Origin: Chitinispirillum alkaliphilum
GTDB lineage: Bacteria; Fibrobacterota; Chitinivibrionia; Chitinivibrionales; Chitinispirillaceae
Length of the DNA stretch: 64,000 nucleotides
NCBI GenBank assembly: GCA_001045525.1
Contig: LDWW01000001.1
Coordinates: forward strand, 248,001 to 312,000
Direction: 5' to 3'
Below, piece after piece: positions 49,571 through 53,499 of the stretch. Position 1 is the first letter of the stretch, and each line of letters starts with the position of its first letter. The position numbers and the translations under genes were made by a program. Under the pieces are notes generated by a model. That model was not told the origin of the DNA, did not search any database, and was given only the letters and a program-made list of their open reading frames with translations.

Positions 49571-49810
49571 ACTCTGATGGTTATGCAAAAAAACTGTGTT
49601 TTGTCCCAATAGTTTGTGAGATAAATTTTTTCCGGACTGTTTAAAAATATATCAGTTAAACAGAAAAAAATCTTCACATAGAAGTAAAATGATTTATCTT
49701 TTCATAAAGATTGGATTTTCAGTTTTCTGCCGTTATAATAACAATTTGTAAGTTATTGTTATTTAAAATCATTATTTGTATCCTTGCCCCTTACAAAGGA
49801 GAAGAAGGAA

Positions 49811-51193
49811 ATGAAGACTCACCTCCGAACCGTTTTGTTTTTACTGTTGATTTCCGGTTTGCCTGTGCAAAGTACACTGATTTTCAGCGATGATTTTTCC
49901 AACCCCGCTTTATCCGACCTGAACTGGTCTGCGAATATGCCAAATTATGTTACACTTGGTTATTCTGATGATAAGCTTACGATAAAAAACAATCATCACA
50001 ATTACAGCGGATTGGTAACACACGCTCTCCCATCATCAGATAAACGTGACACATTCACTCTTTCTGTTGATATGATTGGCGACCCACATAATTCCAGTGG
50101 AATGGGGGTTATGTTTTGTCTTCAGGGGGCAGGACTCATTGAGGGATATGGGCTCCATGTTCAGGGCAATCTTCTTTATGTCAGAAAGTATACAGGGAGC
50201 GAAAACGGTGTGATTTTTCAGAAAAACAGTGGTTATATAAATCAGGACAGAAATGAGTTCAAAATCAGTAAAGGTGGTTCTGATTTCTATATCTTTGTAA
50301 ATGGAGAGTTGGAGGGTACATTTACTGATTCACAGTATGAATCCGGCGATATTGCCTTTATGGTACCACCCAGCTCTGAATTGGTCGTAGACAGGGTTAA
50401 AAAAGAGCACGTTTTTGATATCGGAGAGAGCAGATCGAGTTTTGTAACCAGTTTCGATGGTGATGGTACGTTGGCTGGCTGGACCAGGCTGGGAGATCCA
50501 ACTACAGAGGTCACGGAAGAAGACAATGTGTTGAAGGTACAGACAAGCTCATCCACAGATGGGTTTTATTACTCTGTAAATGTTGATGTGGAAAATTTTG
50601 TAGCCAGAACAGTCGTGTCTCATCGTAAGGGGGACAACCGTTCGTTCTATGGCTTATTTTTAATGGGGTATTCGGGAGAAAATATCTCTGTTGCATGTTT
50701 TGGGGTTAACGGGAGCCGTAATTATGCAACTTTCTTACCTGATGGTTCAACGTTTATTCCTTCTCCGAGTACCAGAGTAAGGGGGGCGGCACTTGTGCAT
50801 GATGGTGAGACCTACTACTACCAGGACACCCTTGAGATATACAAAGCGGAAGGTTCTGCTGAGTATGTGTTCAGAATAAACGGCAAACCATTGAGCCGTT
50901 TTACAAATGTTCAGTTTGATATCTCGGGGGTTGGGATATTTGCCTATGAAGACCTGGAGTTACAGTTCGATTATTTCGGGGTTGCTGAAGGGGAAGAGCT
51001 TCCCAATACCAGCATAATAAACAGACCGGTTGTGAGAAGAGAATTTTTAATTGAGAAAAGGGATATGGGGACATTTGATCTGCGGGGAAGAAAAGTGAAT
51101 ACAACACCGGGCAGCGGTTTTATCAGAGAAGCCCCGAGGTCTTCAGGAATGTATTTAAATGATAAAGACGGTAAAAAGATAATCATTCGGTAA
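49811..51193 (+). CDS. Secreted protein with concanavalin-like beta domains and C-terminal sorting-like tail
   Basis: A 460-residue exported protein. ATG 49811 is chosen because GGAGAAGAAGG lies just upstream and a signal peptide (about 1-22) follows. Two beta-sandwich stretches resemble LamG/DUF1080-type sugar-binding folds (FSDDFSNPALSDLNWSANMP; FYIFVNGELEGTFTDSQYES; second copy around FDGDGTLAGWTRLGD). The C-terminus (TFDLRGRKVNTTPGSGF...KKIIIR) is a short form of the tail seen on the GH8 enzyme. No catalytic motif is visible, so it may bind a polysaccharide. It ends 20 bp before the ferritin gene. Confidence 0.65.
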   Translation: MKTHLRTVLFLLLISGLPVQSTLIFSDDFSNPALSDLNWSANMPNYVTLGYSDDKLTIKNNHHNYSGLVTHALPSSDKRDTFTLSVDMIGDPHNSSGMGVMFCLQGAGLIEGYGLHVQGNLLYVRKYTGSENGVIFQKNSGYINQDRNEFKISKGGSDFYIFVNGELEGTFTDSQYESGDIAFMVPPSSELVVDRVKKEHVFDIGESRSSFVTSFDGDGTLAGWTRLGDPTTEVTEEDNVLKVQTSSSTDGFYYSVNVDVENFVARTVVSHRKGDNRSFYGLFLMGYSGENISVACFGVNGSRNYATFLPDGSTFIPSPSTRVRGAALVHDGETYYYQDTLEIYKAEGSAEYVFRINGKPLSRFTNVQFDISGVGIFAYEDLELQFDYFGVAEGEELPNTSIINRPVVRREFLIEKRDMGTFDLRGRKVNTTPGSGFIREAPRSSGMYLNDKDGKKIIIR

Positions 51194-51212
51194 TGCTGAA
51201 GGAGGTGGAGTG

Positions 51213-51749
51213 ATGATCAGTGAAAAAATGGAAAATGCTCTGAACGGGCAGATTAATAAAGAGATGTTCTCAGCATACCTATATATGTCTATGTCTGCTC
51301 AGAGTGGTGCTATGGGGCTTAAGGGGGTTTCTGTGTGGTTCATGGCACAGTATCACGAAGAGATGTTTCATGCAATGAAAATTTACGAATATGTCAATAG
51401 GCATGGAGCAAGGGTTAGGTTGGATGCCATAGAGCGGCCACAGCAGGATTTCTCCTCTGTGCTGGAAATGTTCGAAAAAACCCTTGAACATGAAAAGCTG
51501 GTCACTAAGAGTATCAATGATCTGGTGGATCGGGCTGTTGAGGAGAGGGATCATGCGACCCAGACTTTCCTCTCCTGGTATGTTACCGAACAGGTTGAAG
51601 AAGAAGATAGTGCAAATGAAATAATCCAAAAACTAAAACTCATGGGTGACAACACAGGCGGATTATATCTTTTGGATAAAGAGCTTGGTTCAAGAGTTGT
51701 AAATGCACCGGTGGATTTCTCTTTGGGTGTTGAATCTGCCGGAGCGTAA
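51213..51749 (+). CDS. ftnA: Non-heme ferritin
   Basis: A 178-residue four-helix-bundle iron-storage protein. Ferroxidase ligands are visible: E in INKEMFSAYLYM, the EEMFHAMKIYEYV motif (E-x2-H) and EQVEEEDSANEII near the C-terminus. ATG 51213 is preferred to the overlapping GTG at 51210 because GGAGG lies 7 nt before it. It oxidises and stores iron and limits oxidative damage. It is followed by rubredoxin 54 bp later, suggesting a redox/iron operon. Symbol by family. Confidence 0.93.
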   Translation: MISEKMENALNGQINKEMFSAYLYMSMSAQSGAMGLKGVSVWFMAQYHEEMFHAMKIYEYVNRHGARVRLDAIERPQQDFSSVLEMFEKTLEHEKLVTKSINDLVDRAVEERDHATQTFLSWYVTEQVEEEDSANEIIQKLKLMGDNTGGLYLLDKELGSRVVNAPVDFSLGVESAGA

Positions 51750-51803: not shown

Positions 51804-51962
51804 ATGAGTTACGTGTGCAATGTGTGTGGTTATGTTTATGATCCTGAAGTTGGAGATCCTGATAATGGGGTAGCGCCAGGAACCGCTTTTGCCGATATTC
51901 CTGATACCTGGGTATGCCCGGAATGTGGCGTCGGTAAAGATGAGTTTTCACCTGAGGAATAA
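51804..51962 (+). CDS. Rubredoxin
   Basis: A 52-residue electron carrier with one Fe bound by four Cys: C5-x2-C8 ([12 protein letters not shown]) and C38-x2-C41 ([13 protein letters not shown]). The central [15 protein letters not shown] is family-typical. GGAGG lies about 6 nt before the ATG. In anaerobes rubredoxin often donates electrons to oxygen- or peroxide-reducing enzymes; its position after ferritin fits that. Confidence 0.96.
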
Positions 51963-51971
51963 AAATTTTCA

Positions 51972-52003
51972 GGGTTGGTTGGTAAGTTCTTTTCAACCAA
52001 CCC
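51972..52003 (+). terminator. Hairpin after rubredoxin
   Basis: GGGTTGGTTG (51972-51981) pairs exactly with CAACCAACCC (51994-52003). It is followed by C and G rather than T, so it may be an RNA stabiliser or partial terminator. The small Cys-rich frame begins 13 bp later. Confidence 0.55.
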
Positions 52004-52015
52004 CCCCGGGTTGGT

Positions 52016-52165
52016 ATGCACTCTGAGAAGTGTGAAAAGGAAAAAGAATTTCCCAAAAAGCATCCGTGCAAAGATTGCAGACAGTGTCAGTGGTGTTCAG
52101 ATGTACGATGCAGGATGTGCAGGGGCACTGATACCAAAATTACACCACCTAAACCAGGAACATGA
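52016..52165 (+). CDS. Small cysteine-rich protein (49 residues)
   Basis: ATG 52016 to TGA 52165 encodes a basic peptide with seven Cys, six of them in a dense run: HPCKDCRQCQWCSDVRCRMC. The CxxC/CxxxCxxC spacing would suit zinc or an Fe-S cluster, and I recall similar short peptides in other anaerobes without known function. It lies between rubredoxin and zwf on the same strand and ends 8 bp before the zwf start. The ribosome-binding site (GGGTTGG) is weak. Confidence 0.6.
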   Translation: MHSEKCEKEKEFPKKHPCKDCRQCQWCSDVRCRMCRGTDTKITPPKPGT

Positions 52166-52173
52166 GGTGATGT

Positions 52174-53499
52174 GTGGGTATTTCCAATTGTGCGATCATT
52201 ATCCTTGGGGCTTCAGGGGATCTCGCCAGACGTAAACTAATCCCCGCCCTCCATGAACTCTACAATCAGGGTAAAATTGATGATACAAGTATTATTGTCG
52301 GATCGGGTCGTACCTATTTCGATGATGAAAAGTTTAGACAGCGCTTTGAGGTAAATCAGTCCTTTGCCCGTATGATGTATTATCATCAGTATATAGCTGG
52401 TGTAAAAAAGTTTGTGCAGAGTAAGGGTAATTTTTCTAAAGTCATAATCTTCCTCTCCCAGCCTCCTTCCGCCTACGGGCCCACGGCACGTGAGCTTGTT
52501 GCAGAAGGTTTTGGCAATGAAGTGTCTTTGGTTATAGAAAAACCGTTTGGTTATGACTACAGATCTGCCCGTGAGCTCAATCGGGAACTAAATGCATGTT
52601 TCAGTGAAAATCAGATCTTTAGAATAGATCATTACCTCGCCAAAGAAGCGGTTCAGAATATACTGGTTTTCAGGTTTGCCAACTCTATTTTTTTTCCTGT
52701 ATGGAACAGTCATTATATTGAATTCATTCAAATAAACGCACTCGAGAATCAGGGAATTGTAGAGCGGGGCGGATATTTTGATAAGTCTGGAATAATCCGG
52801 GATATGGTACAGAACCATCTGCTTCAACTCTTATGCCTTCTGACCATGGAGGCCCCCGTATCCCTTGATGCTGAAGATATACGGAATCAGAAAAAAAACA
52901 TACTGCGCTCCATAACGATTACCGGTTGCAACAGGTTCCAGTATGAGGGATACCGCCAGGAAAAAGCGGTGGCCAGAGATTCCCAAACAGAGACATTTGC
53001 AGAACTGTCTTTAAAAATAAATAATTTCAGGTGGAAAAACACGCCAATCTATATCCGCACTGGCAAAGCTCTGCACAGACAGGGAACTGAGATCGGAATC
53101 CGGTTCAGACCTATACCGAATCTGTTATACAATACTTCCGGAGATCTTAAGCAGAATCAGATTGTATTCAAGATTCAACCCTCAGAAGGTATAATAATCG
53201 ATTTGTCCGCGAAAACCCCTGGTGCTGAAGGTTCGATCTCCGGAACTCACATGAATTTCTGTTACAGGGACTCCTTTCCAAGTAAGATACCGGAAGCCTA
53301 CCAGCGTCTTCTTTACGATGTTCTCAAAGAGGATCATACACTGTTTGTGAGCGCCTCGGAAACAGAAATTGCCTGGTCACTTATTGATGGCTATCTTAAC
53401 AACGGAGAATTGAGGTATTATAAGCCCGGCTCAACTCCGCCAGGCTTATTCAATGTGGATTGGATCGACTTTGACTCCTACACCAGACTCTGCAGCTAA
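52174..53499 (+). CDS. zwf: Glucose-6-phosphate 1-dehydrogenase
   Basis: A 441-residue enzyme oxidising glucose-6-phosphate to 6-phosphogluconolactone. The nucleotide-binding LGASGDLARRKLIPAL and the active-site RIDHYLAKEAVQNI are intact, as are VIEKPFGYD and YIRTGKALH. It is shorter than the common 480-500 residues, mainly in the N-terminal domain. Start is GTG 52174 behind GAGGTGA. It converges on argS with an 8-bp gap. Confidence 0.94.
   Translation: MGISNCAIIILGASGDLARRKLIPALHELYNQGKIDDTSIIVGSGRTYFDDEKFRQRFEVNQSFARMMYYHQYIAGVKKFVQSKGNFSKVIIFLSQPPSAYGPTARELVAEGFGNEVSLVIEKPFGYDYRSARELNRELNACFSENQIFRIDHYLAKEAVQNILVFRFANSIFFPVWNSHYIEFIQINALENQGIVERGGYFDKSGIIRDMVQNHLLQLLCLLTMEAPVSLDAEDIRNQKKNILRSITITGCNRFQYEGYRQEKAVARDSQTETFAELSLKINNFRWKNTPIYIRTGKALHRQGTEIGIRFRPIPNLLYNTSGDLKQNQIVFKIQPSEGIIIDLSAKTPGAEGSISGTHMNFCYRDSFPSKIPEAYQRLLYDVLKEDHTLFVSASETEIAWSLIDGYLNNGELRYYKPGSTPPGLFNVDWIDFDSYTRLCS

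Follow-up and report, generated by a model that had tools for sequence, protein, structure and literature searches.

A conserved six-cysteine microprotein encoded between rubredoxin and glucose-6-phosphate dehydrogenase genes, a candidate metal-binding redox helper

What might a protein of 49 residues, seven of them cysteines, do between a rubredoxin and a glucose-6-phosphate dehydrogenase (G6PDH)? In the window, the 64,000-nucleotide stretch of Chitinispirillum alkaliphilum DNA that was analysed here, the list of open reading frames contains a frame at 52016..52165 (+ strand) that runs from ATG to TGA and encodes MHSEKCEKEKEFPKKHPCKDCRQCQWCSDVRCRMCRGTDTKITPPKPGT; we use CysP as a working name for this product. 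A sequence-only reading had singled out this frame and its place between rubredoxin and zwf, and we find both as it described, with the neighbours now identified by Pfam and NCBIfam models. A non-haem ferritin gene (51210..51749; PF00210, 147 bits), the rubredoxin gene immediately 5′ of CysP (51804..51962; PF00301, 90 bits against a cut-off of 23; NF045768, 99.7 against 90), CysP itself and zwf immediately 3′ of it (52174..53499; TIGR00871, 433 bits against a cut-off of 400.6) are consecutive, all on the + strand, and 8 nt separate the CysP stop from the zwf start. Farther 5′, before ferritin, lies a 469-amino-acid open reading frame (49784-51193, + strand), for which NCBIfam gave nothing at 1e-5.

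No promoter-like or terminator-like site was reported in the rubredoxin–CysP spacer (51963..52015, + strand), or anywhere on the + strand from the ferritin start to the zwf start, by a scan that did no better than shuffled sequence and is uninformative (7 promoter-like sites, where shuffles gave 5.2; 1 terminator-like site, where they gave 2.1). An inverted repeat at 51970-52013 in the spacer (GGTTGGTTG/CAACCAACC) was considered as a hairpin and rejected, its folding being ordinary (z −1.14; 24 of 200 shuffles equally good). The ferritin and rubredoxin genes each have a ribosome-binding site, and no clear one was seen 5′ of the CysP ATG. Spacing and scan data are thus only compatible with a single ferritin–rubredoxin–CysP–zwf operon.

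The frame itself is conserved. Comparison with 133 relatives (16 from genome searches and 117 from a DNA-pattern scan, together 118 distinct cores) defines a core, K15..C35 (52058..52120, + strand; K-H-P-C-K-D-C-R-Q-C-Q-W-C-S-D-V-R-C-R-M-C), the alignment columns of which are invariant or nearly so. Its motif is C-x2-C-x2-C-x2-C-x4-C-x2-C with Lys at −3, Asp at +2, Gln at +7 and Arg at +13, all of which the window copy has, and the relatives share K-x2-C-x-D-C-x2-C-Q-x-C-x3-R-C-x2-C. Of the seven cysteines that the sequence-only reading counted, six belong to this motif; the remaining one, Cys6, lies outside it. The DNA pattern specified Trp +8, Asp +2 and Arg +13 and left both Lys −3 (118 of 118 cores) and Gln +7 (110 of 118) free. 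A second set of 95 distinct cores, mostly found by profile and filtered for six cysteines and a Lys within five residues, has Asp in 90, Gln in 87, Arg in 91 (Lys in the other 4), Lys −3 in 93 and Trp in 56. Most of the members that we read are about 45–90 amino acids long and have variable ends. In Spirochaete-type and some other loci the N terminus is GxxG-x-Y-x-P-like; Geobacter-type members and one Planctomycetota-type group share the C-terminal stretch LS-x2-EQI-x-LYE-x-LN.

Selection on this core is evident at the codon level. Compared with a congener, the core has a synonymous proportion of 1.08 (saturated) and a nonsynonymous proportion of 0.16, so the core is under purifying selection; over all 49 codons the figures are 0.81 and 0.36, and the ends are therefore much freer than the core. 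Together with the open reading frame and its conservation in relatives, this establishes that the CysP gene is real and conserved, and its placement is operon-like.

The family extends well beyond the organism of the window. At E ≤ 0.01 CysP matched 17 of 60 genomes, the window genome included, and among 167 genomes of the window's phylum a profile search at E ≤ 0.001 found 17 carriers; the two sets of carriers differ, one genome with a weak match (G034) being lost and another (G157) gained. The sequence-only reading had staked its case on conservation of the frame in relatives and had proposed a search for the cysteine pattern elsewhere: relatives have kept the frame, it is conserved in several further phyla as well, and the pattern recurs across several groups of bacteria. 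The DNA-pattern scan of the genome collection returned at least 118 stretches, of which 117 were accepted and one (L133) was dropped by hand after reading as a chance match. Among the matches listed with titles (80 of at least 118), most are from Geobacter, Geomonas, Desulfuromonadales and other Desulfobacterota-type metagenome-assembled genomes (MAGs), and others are titled Nitrospirae, Planctomycetes, Fibrobacteres/Chitinispirillaceae, Lentisphaerae, Spirochaetia and, in one case, an Erysipelotrichia MAG. The groups that carry CysP are mostly anaerobes. For the Geobacter-type order, profile searches at E ≤ 1e-5 detected it in 126 of 141 genomes; for the phyla of the Spirochaetia, Planctomycetota, Nitrospirae and Lentisphaerae loci the counts are 25 of 198, 18 of 294, 12 of 148 and 5 of 240 genomes, respectively. 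These counts vary with the E-value limit and, for the larger phyla, come from samples. Nearly all carriers have one match, and G170, G174 and G567 have two. A second, weak match in the window genome (G000:C3, locus L002; E 9.5e-4) lacks the six-cysteine pattern and is probably due to chance. A mobile or phage origin was considered and rejected: viral contigs gave no match to the DNA pattern, and phages and plasmids gave none to one Geobacter/Desulfuromonadales-type query member each.

Searches of protein family libraries gave CysP no name. The window protein matches no Pfam or NCBIfam family even at E 10; five typed relatives have no Pfam match and a single NCBIfam match (E 5.5, far under the cut-off); and 71 members searched at E 0.05 gave scattered matches, each to one or two members and none believable, the best by E-value alone being a Stabilin EGF-like model (E 5.6e-4). 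Searches of PDB sequences with three profiles gave best E-values of 0.13, 0.08 and 0.25, again none believable. AlphaFold2 produced a poor model of the window protein (pLDDT 61) and a fair one of a tailed member, L080 (pLDDT 75.5), with short strands, one helix at 20-26 that covers the last CxxC and another at 37-47 in the tail; for this second model Foldseek found no match in the PDB. In a literature search of titles and abstract openings we recognised no description of a six-cysteine family of this kind. By these sequence comparisons, CysP is a member of an unnamed family that the Pfam and NCBIfam copies searched do not list; other databases may carry it as a hypothetical protein, and cysteine-rich microproteins as a kind are already known.

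Several known small cysteine proteins invite comparison. Rubredoxin (PF00301) is likewise a tiny cysteine-rich protein of the same gene run, with a metal likely held at cysteine thiols in both; in the window rubredoxin, however, about 30 residues separate two CxxC pairs, whereas six cysteines of CysP fall within 18 residues. CysP lacks this two-knuckle layout and has no PF00301 match at E 10. C-x2-C-x2-C spacing recalls ferredoxin-type [4Fe-4S] loops, and the window protein has no ferredoxin match in Pfam or NCBIfam. The C(P)XCG zinc-finger microproteins of Haloferax volcanii are described as very small, with CxxC pairs, and as predicted zinc binders (PMC11241148); CysP differs in its overlapping CxxCxxCxxC run and does not have the C(P)XCG pattern as given in that account (PMC11241148). 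No zinc-ribbon model in Pfam or NCBIfam matches the window protein.

Gene neighbourhoods offer the main clue to function. In the phylum of the window, 10 of the 17 carriers have rubredoxin directly 5′ and zwf directly 3′ of CysP, with ferritin (seven loci) or rubrerythrin (three) 5′ of rubredoxin and, in three of the ten (G005, G003 and G028), superoxide reductase 1.5–2.4 kb 5′. Two more carriers (G016 and G011) have superoxide reductase 0.2–0.6 kb 5′ of the core and no rubredoxin that we could find, G011 having a peroxiredoxin match near CysP as well. The remaining five have none of the tested redox genes, on contigs that in three cases are short (G035 ends about 0.1 kb and G026 about 1.9 kb past the core; G157 starts about 0.3 kb before the match). 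Among 18 genomes of the phylum without detected CysP, 12 have zwf, and in five of these rubredoxin lies 126–241 nt 5′ of it, preceded in two by ferritin; no cysteine-rich frame lies between the two genes in these five. CysP is thus dispensable to the rubredoxin–zwf operon, as five genomes keep that pair without it.

Related arrangements occur in two other phyla. Three of 18 Planctomycetota-type carriers have rubrerythrin and superoxide reductase 5′ of CysP and zwf 0.2–1.5 kb 3′ of it; two of these loci include an AhpD-type gene and two have interposed genes, and in L218 the AhpD-type gene is in frame with CysP, although an ATG stands at the AhpD start. CysP was detected in 10 of 17 genomes of one order that belongs to the phylum of the Lentisphaerae-titled L063, with DsbD–CysP–zwf in nine of the ten; within about 3.6 kb 5′, seven of the nine loci contain rubredoxin (six), superoxide reductase (five), ferritin (six) or rubrerythrin (two), and in one of the two that do not (L326) the contig begins about 2.1 kb 5′. 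With loci of the ferritin, rubrerythrin and superoxide reductase type in the phylum of the window and in two others, CysP and zwf thus stand amid much the same gene set, in differing order, in three phyla.

We also observed a second cysteine-rich protein in these CysP–zwf clusters (L320:8177-8533, − strand), of about 120 amino acids, with a C-x-C-G or CxxCG-like start and a CPxxCxC end. Its gene lies 5′ of DsbD and, in clusters that show ferritin, follows the ferritin gene; it has look-alikes in L322, L324, L325, L326 and L328. At 1e-5 the L320 copy matches nothing in Pfam or NCBIfam.

The iron/redox context that the sequence-only reading inferred for the window thus recurs in two further phyla; most family members examined, Geobacter-type ones among them, have none of the tested redox genes nearby. 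Neighbours were tested by tblastn at 1e-5 with few reference proteins (rubredoxin, superoxide reductase, ferritin, rubrerythrin, AhpD, cytochrome bd, peroxiredoxin and zwf), a test that distant relatives can escape. Matches to the redox references lie within 2.5 kb in 23 of 171 loci, some of which share a genome (for example, L043/L219 and L059/L215), and in none of 68 tail-type (Geobacter-type) sequences from the DNA-pattern scan. The Spirochaete- and Nitrospirae-type loci examined have no reference redox gene within 4 kb. Elsewhere, cytochrome bd genes lie directly 5′ of CysP in L132 and L220, and a peroxiredoxin gene 0.4 kb 3′ in L081, L220 and L081 being the two copies of genome G174. The common neighbour of tail-type loci is a polysaccharide deacetylase (matched in 50 loci), and by eye UspA-like, YggS, ProC and MATE-like membrane protein genes are also common, the last without an NCBIfam match. 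A tree of the 34-column core has strong support on no branch. The zwf-linked sequences cluster on it (9 changes, compared with 19.4 in shuffles, none of 500 of which was as low), which cannot decide between one and several origins, because near relatives alone suffice to produce such clustering.

Some members are joined to, or lie beside, other sequences. In L110 (1722-2309, + strand) CysP is in frame with a part like ArsC and low-molecular-weight phosphatases (best 41 bits against a cut-off of 174), and ATG, GTG and TTG are all absent at the junction. In L216, L217 and L214, by eye, it lies beside, or shares a long frame with, sequence like that of M16-type peptidases, and much of the 5′ part of the long frame may be non-coding.

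What the neighbourhoods suggest in the zwf-linked lineages is a part in handling oxygen. Anaerobes of this kind are known to defend themselves against oxygen with a system of rubredoxin, rubrerythrin and superoxide reductase (PMC545781). From the neighbouring oxygen-defence genes and zwf it follows that CysP is probably a small metal-binding redox helper, and from gene order and content we infer that it is part of oxygen and reactive oxygen species (ROS) defence and NADPH supply in three phyla. The reading that we prefer, with belief and doubt in equal measure, is that CysP is a metal-thiolate protein that serves these functions in zwf-linked lineages as a redox-active partner or switch. Judged by their invariance, the six cysteines most likely hold a metal, which would be zinc, or iron or an Fe–S cluster. 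Gene order would make CysP a component of the anaerobe set of rubredoxin, ferritin, rubrerythrin and superoxide reductase, coupled through zwf to NADPH. The metal-thiolate centre would stay intact in a reducing cytoplasm and would be oxidised, or lose its metal, upon exposure to oxygen or peroxide; the electron-transfer and NADPH-producing enzymes encoded beside it might then have in CysP a small redox-active partner or switch.

The main rival to the redox reading is that CysP is a zinc finger linked to RNA or the ribosome, in which the six cysteines hold structural zinc, a basic tail binds RNA and the redox neighbours are incidental. Many members do have Lys/Arg-rich tails (by eye), and the L080 model, with its short strands, helix over the last CxxC and tail helix, would suit such a protein, even if Foldseek found no fold that matches it. 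Genomic associations point the same way in places. In six genomes of the Geobacter-type order (L221-L226), chosen for long open frames and not drawn at random, CysP is in frame with a TrmN-like methyltransferase; ATG is absent from the junction in L223, L225 and L226 (L225 has a GTG) and present in L221, L222 and L224, and a natural fusion is possible. In one Planctomycetota-type group a U32 (TrhP/UbiU-like) gene lies no more than 0.45 kb 3′ of CysP at 11 of the 12 loci, and the protein is a variant with CQFC (L202-L206 and L208-L213). ArfB is just 3′ of CysP in L091 and L123 (by NCBIfam in L123), and within 2.5 kb there are EF-P genes in seven loci (by eye) and EpmA genes in five (by NCBIfam in L113). 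The methyltransferase and U32 matches are, however, well under the family cut-offs (67 against 350 bits for TrmN; 225 against 534 for TrhP), and these RNA-linked contexts are each bound to a lineage, unlike the context of the window. We consider this explanation unlikely, but it is the one that most deserves to be kept in mind.

A narrower alternative starts from zwf: CysP could be a dedicated redox regulator that binds Zwf and toggles its activity according to thiol state, much as cyanobacterial OpcA does. The association with zwf is close: CysP stands directly 5′ of it in 10 of the 17 carriers of the window's phylum (at the 8-nt distance given above in the window) and in 9 of 10 in the order from the Lentisphaerae phylum, and the two genes share a cluster in 3 of 18 Planctomycetota-type carriers. 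To our knowledge, OpcA is not a small six-cysteine protein. OpcA is described as a redox-regulated activator of G6PDH (PMC7242069; PMC13071761), and the cyanobacterial protein resembles what we propose here in being a redox-sensitive cysteine protein tied to G6PDH, by which NADPH supply is matched to redox state (PMC7242069). Compared with it by description, CysP has 49 amino acids and occurs mostly without zwf in the Geobacter-type order. In that order CysP is present in 126 of 141 genomes and a zwf match in 41 (both in 39, CysP alone in 87, zwf alone in 2), although some of these genomes are incomplete MAGs that could conceal some zwf genes. A role confined to G6PDH is therefore not general, because no zwf match was obtained for 87 of the 126 Geobacter-type carriers, and rubredoxin and zwf also occur together without CysP in five genomes, two of them with ferritin. 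We regard dedicated regulation of G6PDH as improbable and a G6PDH-only role for CysP as unlikely, although CysP may serve G6PDH locally in the zwf-linked lineages.

Alternatively, the thiols of CysP could hold iron and pass it to adjoining Fe(Cys)4 or Fe–S proteins, as a means of iron or Fe–S delivery or buffering. The redox-linked neighbours are iron proteins: rubredoxin, superoxide reductase, rubrerythrin and ferritin hold iron, as do the U32 enzymes and cytochrome bd found near CysP elsewhere. Moreover, C-x2-C-x2-C spacing occurs around 4Fe-4S clusters, and CysP shares it with such sites. On present evidence, however, iron delivery is indistinguishable from plain metal binding, and none of the 68 tail-type sequences has a match to rubredoxin, superoxide reductase, rubrerythrin or ferritin within 2.5 kb, so that we think this role very doubtful. 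A chance open frame or an untranslated conserved element, which the lack of a clear ribosome-binding site at the window ATG and the absence of CysP from the matching operon of five relatives might suggest, is ruled out for practical purposes by protein-level conservation across phyla and by saturated synonymous change in a core under selection.

We return to CysP as a metal-thiolate redox helper. The original function of the family must reach beyond G6PDH, because most Geobacter-type carriers have no zwf match. A more ambitious proposal, in our judgement a long shot, is that CysP would be a metal-thiolate switch of strict anaerobes that ties NADPH from zwf and electron flow through rubredoxin and superoxide reductase to oxygen exposure, a counterpart of OpcA- and CP12-type redox regulators without known kinship to them, recruited in three phyla from an older, widely distributed six-cysteine family. 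If CysP is part of oxygen survival in anaerobes, it would supply the rubredoxin/superoxide reductase system with a component that has been missing, and might link that system to NADPH supply. CysP occurs in about nine in ten Geobacter-type genomes, yet is absent from the Pfam and NCBIfam copies searched, and its case suggests that family libraries still overlook conserved microproteins.
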